A stretch of 64,000 nt of DNA. It comes from Chitinophaga pinensis (lineage in GTDB: Bacteria > Bacteroidota > Bacteroidia > UBA7662). Shown here piece by piece: positions 25,101 through 27,956 of this stretch. Below the pieces are notes generated by a model. That model worked only from the letters and a program-made list of their open reading frames with translations, ran no database searches and had not been told where the DNA came from. The stretch spans positions 101,937-165,936 of the forward strand of contig CAMCHJ010000002.1 of assembly GCA_945874665.1 (NCBI GenBank), in the 5' to 3' direction. A program made the position numbers and the translations under genes. Positions within the stretch are counted from its first letter, which is position 1, and each line of letters opens with the position of its first letter.

Positions 25101-26192
25101 TCAGTGCCTGAGGAGTTTACCGTTGGGCGTACGGGCAAATTGTGGCTCAAAACGCAGACCGCGAATCATTTCGTGGGCAGGCAAATGCTCCTGCAACAAC
25201 ACTTGCCAGTGCGCTAAGGAAGCAGTTTCAGAGGTTTCAGCGCCTTCTAGCACCATTACGGGCACAGCGCCAAATTGTGGATGGCTTTGTTGGGAGATGT
25301 AAAAGGCTTGGTGCCGCAAGGGTGCGAGTGCAGGCAACCGGACTGCCAATTGCAACAATTTAGCTTCTAATTGCTCGGGATGGATTTTGTGGCCGCCGCT
25401 GTTGATCATGTGGTCGGCACGACCTAACCATCGGAAACTGCCGTTTAGCTCAAGTGCAATCACATCCTGACTTTGCAACCAGCGGTATTGGGTGGCGGCA
25501 CCCCAAGCTCGCAAACAGCCAGACGCATCGCTTTCTACTAATGTGCCTGGCAAAGGCATATACGCCGCTTCAAAAACGGGATGAAGCTGGCGCAAGGCTA
25601 AGTGACTCACGGTTTCGGTCATGCCAAAGCCCTGCCAAAGCTGCTGCACACCAAGTTGGGGTAAGAGAGCCATCAAGTCTGGATTTAAATCACTACCGCC
25701 GAGCAATAAAGTACCCAATGCTTCGGTGTTGGCGTTTGCTTGTAGCATGGCAAAAAGCTGGGCGGGCACCAAAGGCGTAAAGTTAAAGTGCTGCTCAGGA
25801 AACAGCAGGTCGGGCCGCTGCGTGGGCGCAGCCGTGTACAAATTTAAACCGCTCACCAATGCACGTACCACCATCATTTTCCCGGCAATAAAATCGGCAC
25901 TTAAGCACAGTAAAGCCTTTTCGCCGGCTGAAAAGCCAAAATGTAAGGCAGTGAGCTGGGCACTGGCAATCATTTGGTCGCGGCTGAGTTTAATGGCTTT
26001 AGGCCGACCAGTAGAGCCAGAGGTATGCGCCACAATGGGGTCAGCGGTACCGAACCAGGCTTGCAAAAAGGACTGCACAGGTGTTGGAACGCCCAATTGT
26101 TGCAGGTCGGCGGTAGATTGGTTTGATGCCAATGCCTTGGCATCAAACCAATAACCATGTAGCCAAATGCCTTTTACAGTGCTGGGCATCAT
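25101..26192 (-). CDS. menE: o-Succinylbenzoate--CoA ligase (MenE), AMP-binding enzyme
   Basis: Activates o-succinylbenzoate with ATP and CoA in menaquinone synthesis. The 363 residues are short for an acyl-CoA ligase but fit compact Bacteroidota MenE. Adenylation motifs: HTSGSTGRPKAIKLS, WQGFGMTETVSHLA, GRADHMINSGGHKI, and the C-terminal Lys in RTPNGKLL. The start at ATG 26192 overlaps the stop of the upstream AAA/DUF4143 gene as ATGA. A frame open further upstream to 26726 lies inside that gene and is not real. Codons 14-26 carry a perfect 16-bp inverted repeat. Identity as MenE rests partly on the menA-menC context. Confidence 0.88.
   Translation of the reverse strand: MMPSTVKGIWLHGYWFDAKALASNQSTADLQQLGVPTPVQSFLQAWFGTADPIVAHTSGSTGRPKAIKLSRDQMIASAQLTALHFGFSAGEKALLCLSADFIAGKMMVVRALVSGLNLYTAAPTQRPDLLFPEQHFNFTPLVPAQLFAMLQANANTEALGTLLLGGSDLNPDLMALLPQLGVQQLWQGFGMTETVSHLALRQLHPVFEAAYMPLPGTLVESDASGCLRAWGAATQYRWLQSQDVIALELNGSFRWLGRADHMINSGGHKIHPEQLEAKLLQLAVRLPALAPLRHQAFYISQQSHPQFGAVPVMVLEGAETSETASLAHWQVLLQEHLPAHEMIRGLRFEPQFARTPNGKLLRH
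26117..26152 (-). repeat. Perfect 16-bp inverted repeat inside the start of menE
   Basis: Bases 26117-26132 and 26137-26152 are exact reverse complements around TGCC. In the mRNA this hairpin spans nucleotides 41-76 of menE and encodes WFDAKALASNQ. Confidence 0.9.
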
Positions 26193-26785
26193 TCGAACAA
26201 TTTGCTTACGTCCATCTTCAAAAAATCTTGCCAGCGCAAGCCACCATCGCCTACCAAAAGCTGGCGGTGCGGCTTGAACTGCTTTGCAAACAATTCCATG
26301 CCCTTTTGGTTGCGATCGGCAGTCGATTTTACCTCGATACTCACGAGTTTTTGTCCTTTTTCGATCACAAAATCCACTTCCGCCTGTCCATCCCGCCAAT
26401 AATATACCTGATAATTGTGCAGGAAAGATTGGTTGAGCAGGTAGGCGCCCACGGCCGACTCCACCCAGCGGCCCCAAAGCGCAGGCTGCTTGCGGGTGTC
26501 GCGGAAGTACCCACCGAAGAGGGCGCTGTGCAAAGCGGTATTGTGCGCCCGGATCACTTCCCACTGGCTTTTGAGCCAATTGGCATCGGAGGCGGCTTCG
26601 CCGTCGGCTGCTGCAAAATGTGTTGGACCTTCCCATTGCGCTAAAATTTGACGAATGGTGGTGGTTTTGCCGACTTGGCGCGGACCAAAAATCACTTGAA
26701 TGAACTTTCGAGGAAGGCTCAAACACGTGCTAAGCAGCTCGAAATGTGGCCGTTTAATCATAATTTCAAATTTACTCAATGCCAT
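26189..26785 (-). CDS. Shortened AAA/DUF4143 ATP-binding protein with internal deletion
   Basis: A 198-residue product. Residues about 10-75 are the start of an AAA_14-type ATPase with Walker A GPRQVGKTTT. The sequence then passes directly into the DUF4143 domain: LWGRWVESAVGAYLL, then WRDGQAEVDFVI and SIEVKSTAD, which resemble a PD-(D/E)xK nuclease core. Full-length family members are nearly twice as long. Walker B, the sensor part and the linker winged helix are missing, so ATP hydrolysis is unlikely. The frame is intact, so this is either an in-frame deletion relic or a reduced working form. It lies between menC and menE and overlaps the menE start as ATGA. Confidence 0.8.
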   Translation of the reverse strand: MALSKFEIMIKRPHFELLSTCLSLPRKFIQVIFGPRQVGKTTTIRQILAQWEGPTHFAAADGEAASDANWLKSQWEVIRAHNTALHSALFGGYFRDTRKQPALWGRWVESAVGAYLLNQSFLHNYQVYYWRDGQAEVDFVIEKGQKLVSIEVKSTADRNQKGMELFAKQFKPHRQLLVGDGGLRWQDFLKMDVSKLFE

Positions 26786-26838
26786 AAGTATTTTTACTCA
26801 TTCAACTGAGTAATCTTTACTCAATACATTGAGTAAAG
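26771..26838. promoter_or_regulatory. Array of TGAGTAA half-sites at the start of the AAA/DUF4143 gene
   Basis: Five copies of TGAGTAA or its complement occur in 68 bases. CTTTACTCA (26815-26823) and TGAGTAAAG (26830-26838) form a perfect 9-bp dyad with six spacer bases. TACTCA (26795-26800) and TGAGTA (26807-26812) form a second, also with six spacer bases. A fifth half-site at 26771-26778 lies inside codons 3-5. Equivalent sites repeat every 22-23 bases, about two helical turns. This looks like an operator for a dimeric regulator. Confidence 0.6.
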
Positions 26839-26879
26839 ATTTAATTTGTTGATAAAGAATTACTTAAGTTGAATATAAG

Positions 26880-27956
26880 CTATAAATTATCTTGTAAGTC
26901 AACTAAATCCCAAGGATGTTTAGCCGGTAGATACTGTAAAGCGCCCGCTTCGATGTAGAGCGGAGATGCGAAATTGTTAGTGTACAGCGCTCCGGTACCC
27001 AAACCCTGCGGCAGCTCGTTGTGGAGCGTGGCGGTCCACTGCGCAATGGCATTCAAACCAATATTCGATTCAAGTGCAGAAGTCACCCACCAGCGGATGC
27101 CTCGCGCTTCTGCGGCTGCTATCCATTGCTCAGCTGCCTCGAAGCCACCCAGCAAAGTAGGCTTGAGGATGATGTAGGGTGGTTTGATTTGATTCAACAC
27201 TTCTTCTATTTCTTCGAGACTGGTATTGCCAATGAGTTCTTCGTCGAGGGCAATAGGTAAAGGACTCTCTGCGCAAAGCTGGGCCATGAGGGCAGATTGT
27301 CCTGCCTTAATCGGTTGTTCAATGCTGTGCAGTTCAAAAGCTGCCAATTGTTGAAGCTTCCAAAGGGCATCATTTGGAGCAAAGGCGCCGTTGGCATCCA
27401 CACGCAACTCTAAATCTTGCGCGCTAAACTCGCTTCTTAAGGCCTTTAAGATGGCCAATTCGGCTTCAAAATCTATCGCCCCCACTTTGAGCTTGAGGCA
27501 GCGAAAGCCTTGGGCTAGTTTCTGGGTGATTTGTTCTTTCATAAAACCGGCCGACCCCATCCAAATGAGTCCGTTAATGGCCTGAGGCGCGCCTTTCAAA
27601 GTAAAATCGCTTTCAAAAAGAAGTCTTTTGCCCCCCTGCACATAATCGCGCAAGGCCATTTCAAAGCCAAAGCGCATGGCCGGGTAAAAAAGCAGCGATT
27701 CATCAAAAGTAGCCCACTCAGCCTGGTTAAATTGCTCACAAAGTCGTTGCAAACGGGTGCCAAAATCAGGTCGGTCGTCGAAACTCAAGCCAGCTAAAGG
27801 ACCACATTCACCGAGTCCTTGCATGCCATTTTCATCTTCCAAAACCAACATCCAGCTGATTTTGCTATGGAGCACGCCGCGCGAAGTACCCGCAGGCTGT
27901 TTAAAATCGAGGCGGTAGGGAAAACAGCGCGCGCTGAGTTTTTCTGGGATAAGCAT
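26880..27956 (-). CDS. menC: o-Succinylbenzoate synthase (MenC), enolase superfamily
   Basis: Dehydrates SHCHC to o-succinylbenzoate in menaquinone synthesis. The 358 residues contain the superfamily set: the catalytic KxK as CLKLKVG, metal ligands in ELRVDANGAF (Asp), LHSIEQP (Glu) and IALDEEL (Asp), and the second catalytic Lys in YIILKPTLLGG. Its ATG shares one base with the menA stop (TGATG), so the two are coupled. Enolase-superfamily epimerases look similar, but the menA-menC-menE context settles the call. Confidence 0.92.
   Translation of the reverse strand: MLIPEKLSARCFPYRLDFKQPAGTSRGVLHSKISWMLVLEDENGMQGLGECGPLAGLSFDDRPDFGTRLQRLCEQFNQAEWATFDESLLFYPAMRFGFEMALRDYVQGGKRLLFESDFTLKGAPQAINGLIWMGSAGFMKEQITQKLAQGFRCLKLKVGAIDFEAELAILKALRSEFSAQDLELRVDANGAFAPNDALWKLQQLAAFELHSIEQPIKAGQSALMAQLCAESPLPIALDEELIGNTSLEEIEEVLNQIKPPYIILKPTLLGGFEAAEQWIAAAEARGIRWWVTSALESNIGLNAIAQWTATLHNELPQGLGTGALYTNNFASPLYIEAGALQYLPAKHPWDLVDLQDNL

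Follow-up and report, generated by a model that had tools for sequence, protein, structure and literature searches.

The window analyzed here, a stretch of 64,000 nucleotides from Chitinophaga pinensis, includes a tandem array of TGAGTAA half-sites located upstream of an AAA_14/DUF4143 gene. We propose that the array serves this gene as its cognate operator, which the gene's own product would read and through which it would repress the gene. We consider this reading likely (probability of roughly 0.72); there are no binding or repression data for this subfamily. The computed results are the array, its conservation, its specificity for one gene subfamily, its position on the promoter box, the way it covaries with the protein, and the deletion within the window gene.

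The array and the gene remnant in the window

Five exact TGAGTAA half-sites were located at positions 26772-26778(-), 26794-26800(-), 26807-26813(+), 26817-26823(-), and 26830-26836(+). A previous sequence-only reading had counted five half-sites in 68 bp, and both the positions and the shuffling controls confirmed the claim. When the window was subjected to 200 dinucleotide shuffles, the highest TGAGTAA count per 68 bp was one in 192 cases and two in the remaining 8, versus five in the real sequence. This clustering far exceeds chance. The dyads formed by these half-sites number three in the window and four in G001 and G002, which belong to the same genus. A difference of one 23-bp unit within a genus could suggest a chance or functionless tandem duplication. 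However, none of the shuffles exceeded two half-sites, the spacers vary among dyads while the half-sites are retained, and the array is conserved across phyla, so that this explanation is all but excluded.

The three dyads follow each other with a pitch of 22-23 bp, and all of them are 5′ of the gene. Dyad 1 (26812-26841, minus strand), which was compared with the dyads found 5′ of orthologues, is a 30-bp near-perfect palindrome, AATCTTTACTCAAT-AC-ATTGAGTAAAGATT, with 14-bp arms, a 2-nt center, and core half-sites at 26817-26823 and 26830-26836. Dyad 2 (26794-26813, minus strand) has the structure TTACTCA-N6-TGAGTAA with 7-bp arms. Dyad 3 (26772-26791, minus strand) combines the exact half-site at 26772-26778 with a degenerate partner, ATACTTA, at 26785-26791; a degenerate TACTT is found at the location of this partner in G001 and G002. 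The previous descriptions of a perfect 9-bp dyad at 26815-26838 and a 6-bp dyad at 26795-26812 held in part, the real dyads 1 and 2 being larger. The claim that the fifth half-site lies within codons 3-5 of the AAA/DUF4143 gene failed. This half-site is one half of the third dyad. The proposed location of all sites on one face of the helix also held in part: the 22-23 bp spacing is correct, and the phasing is only rough, each unit drifting by ~35-70 degrees if a turn takes 10.5 bp. The genome contains the exact dyad at one locus only, i.e., this gene. A Bacteroidota-type -7 promoter box, TAAATTTG (TAnnTTTG), at 26767-26774 (minus strand) overlaps the last half-site.

The open reading frame as first called, 26189-26785(-), begins too far 5′. 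The orthologues carry an in-frame stop codon (the TAA of TGAGTAA) where codons 3-5 had been placed, and their MIKRP start is conserved; the fifth half-site is therefore 5′ of the gene. The gene thus delimited occupies 26189-26761 (minus strand), with its ATG (MIKRP) at 26761, and encodes a 190-aa remnant of an AAA_14-winged helix-PD-(D/E)XK protein (DUF4143, PDC-S01). With respect to the 389-aa orthologue, 199 codons (597 bp) are deleted with the frame kept. The junction was located at 26543-26547 (minus strand) by a blastn alignment to the coding sequence of G001 and by model m3c80c2ef49d6. The deleted segment corresponds to orthologue residues ~73-271, which include Walker B, the sensor region, and the winged helix. 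The remnant keeps the Walker A motif GPRQVGKT (26663-26686, minus strand), identified in the sequence and with core residues invariant in alignment A1. It also keeps the PD-(D/E)XK motif EVD...IEVK (26327-26380, minus strand), supported by the alignment, the structure model, and the sequence; E327-x-D329 and E342-x-K344 are invariant across alignment A1 and present in the remnant. With Walker A present, Walker B gone, and an AAA_14 score of 25.5 bits, below the cut-off of 27, the window copy is not an intact ATPase. Since the protein has lost both the winged helix and Walker B, the array in the window is likely to be a conserved operator that has been orphaned.

The upstream neighbor is a menC-like gene (26880-27956, minus strand; Pfam MR_MLE_C and MenC_N), which is found beside menE in relatives without the unit. 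On the other side is a menE-like AMP-binding ligase gene (25101-26189, minus strand), the ATG of which (26189-26187) overlaps the remnant's stop codon. A type II toxin-antitoxin system, i.e., a two-gene operon with a small antitoxin, was considered and rejected, the neighbors being the menC-like and menE-like genes. A separate 36-bp self-complementary stretch with a GGTTTGATGCCAAGGCATTGGCATCAAACC core was observed at 26117-26152, early in the menE-like gene; it was not seen in the G001 orthologue.

Conservation in the subfamily and palindromes across the family

A scan for the exact dyad across 395 genomes of Bacteroidia produced matches in 26, versus about 8 for a reversed-pattern control. 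The matching loci lie at subfamily genes, remnants, or orphan arrays in 19 of the 26 cases: 14 are directly 5′ of a subfamily gene (13 full-length genes and the window remnant), three (L046, L051, and L053) are beside just the gene's last 35-53 codons, and two (L040 and L048) are orphan two-dyad arrays. The other seven are lone dyads, mostly within coding sequences, in a number that chance predicts. No second regulon for the motif was seen among the 395 genomes. The L046, L051, and L053 loci look like similar deletion derivatives. In L038 (G053), dyad clusters recur every 285 bp 5′ of the gene (positions 1470-2091), like a longer unit that was duplicated.

A profile search identified 22 full-length members of the subfamily with scores of 535-722 bits, the next family scoring below 120 bits, and dyads or near variants were found 5′ of all 22 and of the G002 gene. 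When up to 3 mismatches in 14 positions were allowed, the upstream dyad was present in 23 of 23 sampled Bacteroidia subfamily genes, 0 of 132 other DUF4143 genes, and 10 of 920 shuffles. Addition of the window, B. finegoldii, Collinsella, and a fecal phage scaffold brought the count to 27 of 27. The 51 dyads of these 27 genes have the consensus TTTACTCA-RTRYAY-TGAGTAAA and a pitch of 22 in 17 cases and 23 in 7. The plasmid gene from Collinsella (Actinomycetota), which shares 41% protein identity, has ATACTCAgtatacTGAGTGAttTTACTCAgtatacTGAGTAT and keeps the array with a 22-bp pitch. Thermus oshimai has TTTTACTAGcttgatCTAGTAAAA, in which the half-site is the symmetrical variant CTAGTAA and the N6 spacer is unchanged.

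The sequence-only reading had suggested a cooperative operator, possibly autoregulatory, for an unidentified regulator, and had set as checks the enrichment of the motif 5′ of related genes and its conservation in close relatives. Both were found (23/23 versus 0/132 for the enrichment), and they support the operator inference. The array is, with strong support, a conserved operator that is probably autoregulatory, and the likely regulator is now the encoded AAA-winged helix-PD-(D/E)XK protein itself; binding and cooperativity are only inferred, as there are no binding data. Alternatively, an unrelated host transcription factor could read the array, because many operators have regulators encoded elsewhere and the array is also present in phage-like contigs without the gene. 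This possibility is very unlikely: the window genome has the motif at this gene and nowhere else, the same array exists in Actinomycetota, the palindromes vary with the protein, and the 395 genomes show no further regulon.

At the corresponding position, other DUF4143 subfamilies have palindromes that differ from this one and are often perfect, such as TTTTTGACAAATACGGAATCtGATTCCGTATTTGTCAAAAA in L210. The inverted-repeat scan of 120-nt regions upstream of 155 DUF4143 genes gave a score of at least 10 in 64.5% of them, versus 3.2% of shuffles, 5.3% of regions -400 to -280, and 0% of gene interiors. The median distance between the palindrome end and the start codon is 10 nt. DUF4143 genes in the Moraxella plasmid pMBO-1 and in a Ruegeria plasmid also carry an upstream palindrome. 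Similarity in the last 70 nt upstream tracks protein identity (Mantel r 0.325; maximum of 300 permutations, 0.092); the DNA farther upstream gave r 0.015, with little similarity even in pairs that are at least 70% identical. Direct repeats occur in some family members, and others lack a clear palindrome in these 120 nt; both count against the self-operator reading. In five loci that lack a single long palindrome (L227, L247, L261, L277, and L284), its position is taken by tandem direct repeats of ~20-23 bp. In most sampled genes of the family, a palindrome of the gene's own immediately precedes the start codon, and it is probable, by inference, that each protein reads and controls its own gene. 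Stated more strongly, the AAA-nuclease family, which is very large, carries private palindromes that co-diversify with the proteins, whereas binding, repression, and mobility are inferred.

The predicted reader and the proposed mechanism

The sequence TAnnTTTG was found within 60 nt 5′ of 64% of the 155 DUF4143 genes versus 4% far upstream. As judged by this consensus, the palindromes overlap the genes' own -7 promoter box; the promoters have not been mapped experimentally. Among palindromes with a nearby -7 box, 51 of 67 cover the zone 5′ of the box and, therefore, are probably not fully transcribed. This observation argues against the possibility that the inverted repeats are leader RNA hairpins that control translation or termination. 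The repeats are near the start codon and able to pair, and some are 3′ of the stop codon. However, an Rfam search gave no match, and an array with a fixed pitch of 22-23 bp suits protein binding, making RNA hairpins a very improbable explanation.

A confident AlphaFold2 model of an orthologue (18 sequences; pLDDT 87.5, pTM 0.88) predicts three domains, which were assigned from secondary structure and motifs as AAA+, winged helix, and PD-(D/E)XK-like. The winged helix in the model comprises helices 200-212 and 220-227, the recognition helix 233-245, and wing strands. The top Foldseek match was 2QEN, and other AAA+/winged-helix proteins were also matched, including the Orc1/Cdc6-DNA complexes 2v1u and 2qby; a search by sequence found no relatives in the PDB. 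The half-site varies together with the predicted recognition helix in a few cases. In the genes with the half-site TGCGTAA (L078 and L343), GNTATL opens this helix, while their relatives with TGAGTAA (L077 and L341) have GNT[V/T]TL; L077, with GNTVTL, is 88% identical. In Thermus, where the half-site is CTAGTAA, ERGNT replaces DAGNT. The A-to-C change in the half-site accompanies a change in the predicted recognition helix, but this is no more than suggestive: it rests on one event in two close relatives plus Thermus, and the proteins also differ elsewhere. The evidence that the encoded protein reads the array is thus indirect, consisting of covariation and the presence of a winged helix, and binding is inferred.

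In the mechanism that we propose, the winged helix of the full-length protein would bind the TTACTCA-N6-TGAGTAA dyads. Each dyad would hold one dimer, and the dimers would lie side by side at the 22-23 bp pitch and cover the gene's own -7 box. The bound protein would repress its promoter until its ATP or oligomeric state changes, e.g., in response to foreign DNA. Other branches of the family would act likewise on their own palindromes. Binding, repression, cooperativity, and the inducer are all inferred. Further observations weigh against a self-operator. The palindrome is also found 3′ of the stop codon in about 12% of the genes, which a simple operator does not need. Phage-like contigs carry arrays without the gene, and therefore another reader of the site may exist. 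Finally, with its winged helix deleted, the window protein has lost the domain through which it would act.

Possible mobility, viral arrays, and relation to known systems

A different interpretation is that the palindromes are the recognized ends of a mobile single-gene unit and act as an operator only secondarily, much as happens in insertion elements where the ends and the promoter overlap. The AAA+/winged helix/PD-(D/E)XK protein would then move or copy a palindrome-ORF-(palindrome) block. This version is compatible with the operator reading, and we rate it as less likely than not. We compared 17 palindrome-bearing pairs whose proteins are at least 80% identical. Their DNA identity, 0.69-0.96 between the palindrome and the start codon, drops to 0.45-0.67 immediately beyond the palindrome, in most cases about what unrelated DNA shows (mean 0.47), and there is another drop 3′ of the stop codon. 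When G170 is compared with G251 and G028, an identity of 88-89% spans from palindrome to palindrome between unrelated flanks. The same palindrome occurs again 3′ of the stop codon in 18 of 152 genes, versus 0.3% for mismatched pairs. Remnants in three genomes keep the array and the gene's last 35-53 codons, two genomes have orphan arrays, and the presence of the subfamily gene is patchy and crosses phyla. Furthermore, four relatives (G004, G005, G009, and G011) have menC directly beside menE, which indicates an insertion of the unit between these two genes in the genus of the window. The menC-menE join in G005 is an ATGA overlap, and the AAA gene stop and the menE start overlap likewise in G001.

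The empty menC-menE site in these relatives is too diverged to define exact ends. Several points argue against mobility. Neither a target-site duplication nor an exact empty site was found between near-identical genomes; searches at the genus level and in Thermus and Agrobacterium plasmids identified only over-diverged or rearranged relatives. Most members have no second palindrome nearby, no known transposase domain was found, and a homology edge is also expected at the last selected base of any transferred gene. Considering the sharp homology edges, the palindromes after the stop codon, and the remnants, the palindrome-ORF unit may move as a block, but a mechanism of transposition has not been shown. 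In L402 (G170; positions 1448-2659), a phage/integron-type tyrosine recombinase gene adjoins the DUF4143 unit, which is flanked by palindromes on both sides.

The three-half-site array TTACTCA-N6-TGAGTAA-N2-TTACTCA was found in at least 120 viral-contig stretches (L089-L208), while the reversed control produced none. Although linkers of 2-4 nt were allowed in the search, all viral arrays have a 2-nt linker and a 22-bp pitch. The stretches form 14 unrelated groups by shared 31-mers, the largest with 103, and 118 of the 120 arrays lie outside any ORF of at least 100 aa. No gene for the AAA protein is present in the array-bearing viral stretches examined. A host search with the main phage group gave only distant portal and terminase matches. 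In this group, the array is one module of a long mosaic of differing short palindromes. In L103, L128, and L141, the array lies where a small ORF meets another gene, which in L141 is that of the terminase large subunit, and the half-sites make the gene ends. The idea that the mosaics collect operators of many DUF4143 subfamilies was dropped, except for one TTTGACAAATTCGGAA match, because the enrichment over controls was weak (37 shared 14-mers versus 21, 13, and 29); two other DUF4143 operators had no match in viral contigs. The viral arrays remain unexplained. The phages may be exploiting the host protein, titrating it, or serving as its target; alternatively, the site may be common to this protein and a different regulator.

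The full-length orthologue matches PADLOC model PDLC04791 (PDC-S01) with E=7.8e-174, and the Pfam families DUF4143 and AAA_14 with 83.9 and 78.2 bits. The family is therefore PDC-S01, a very common candidate phage defense whose anti-phage activity is untested. PMC12988326 counts 29,494 cases in bacteria and 9,986 in archaea, places PDC-S01 fourth in abundance among prokaryotic defense systems, and describes most such candidates as still awaiting validation. The architecture agrees with that report, an ATPase fused to a PD-(D/E)XK domain; the window copy differs in being a deleted remnant. The sections of PMC12988326 that bear on PDC-S01 mention no operator or palindrome, and no papers on DUF4143 palindromes were found in the literature searched, from which most subscription journals were outside scope. 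A family member in T. thermophilus HB27, TT_P0211, was 6.6-fold upregulated when a plasmid was carried, only with Argonaute present (PMC4406477).

Other systems resemble this one in part. Archaeal Orc1/Cdc6 proteins, matched by Foldseek on origin DNA, also combine AAA+ and winged-helix domains, and their origin boxes likewise place dyads beside the gene. However, the DUF4143 protein has an extra PD-(D/E)XK domain, there is no sign of origin function, and the palindromes are on a promoter. Plasmid Rep-iteron systems and tandem-operator autorepressors have repeats with a 22-23 bp pitch beside the gene of the likely reader. In contrast to Rep-iteron systems, no replication-protein family was matched here, the half-sites alternate as dyads, and the domain make-up is different. 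RAYT/REP and IS200/IS605-type elements offer the analogy of a gene with cognate palindromes, a mobile-looking distribution, and remnants, but here Pfam detects no HUH/Y1 transposase domain and the palindrome is not dispersed, the exact dyad being at one locus. Tn7 TnsA/TnsC also pairs a PD-(D/E)XK nuclease with an AAA+ ATPase, whereas here both are in one polypeptide without a transposase partner.

A bolder reading, which we regard as possible, is that PDC-S01 genes are self-contained mobile units in which one protein recognizes a palindrome that is both operator and element end, that every subfamily has evolved a private version of it, and that phages carry the TTACTCA array because it engages the host protein, whether to decoy it, to silence it, or as its target. 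On the preferred reading, as a cognate operator, the private palindrome that precedes most of the family's genes predicts which DNA each protein targets, and function, regulation, and mobility become directly testable. The phage-borne arrays are a concrete place to seek phage-host conflict, and the findings raise the question of whether PDC-S01 genes are defense genes, selfish mobile units, or both.
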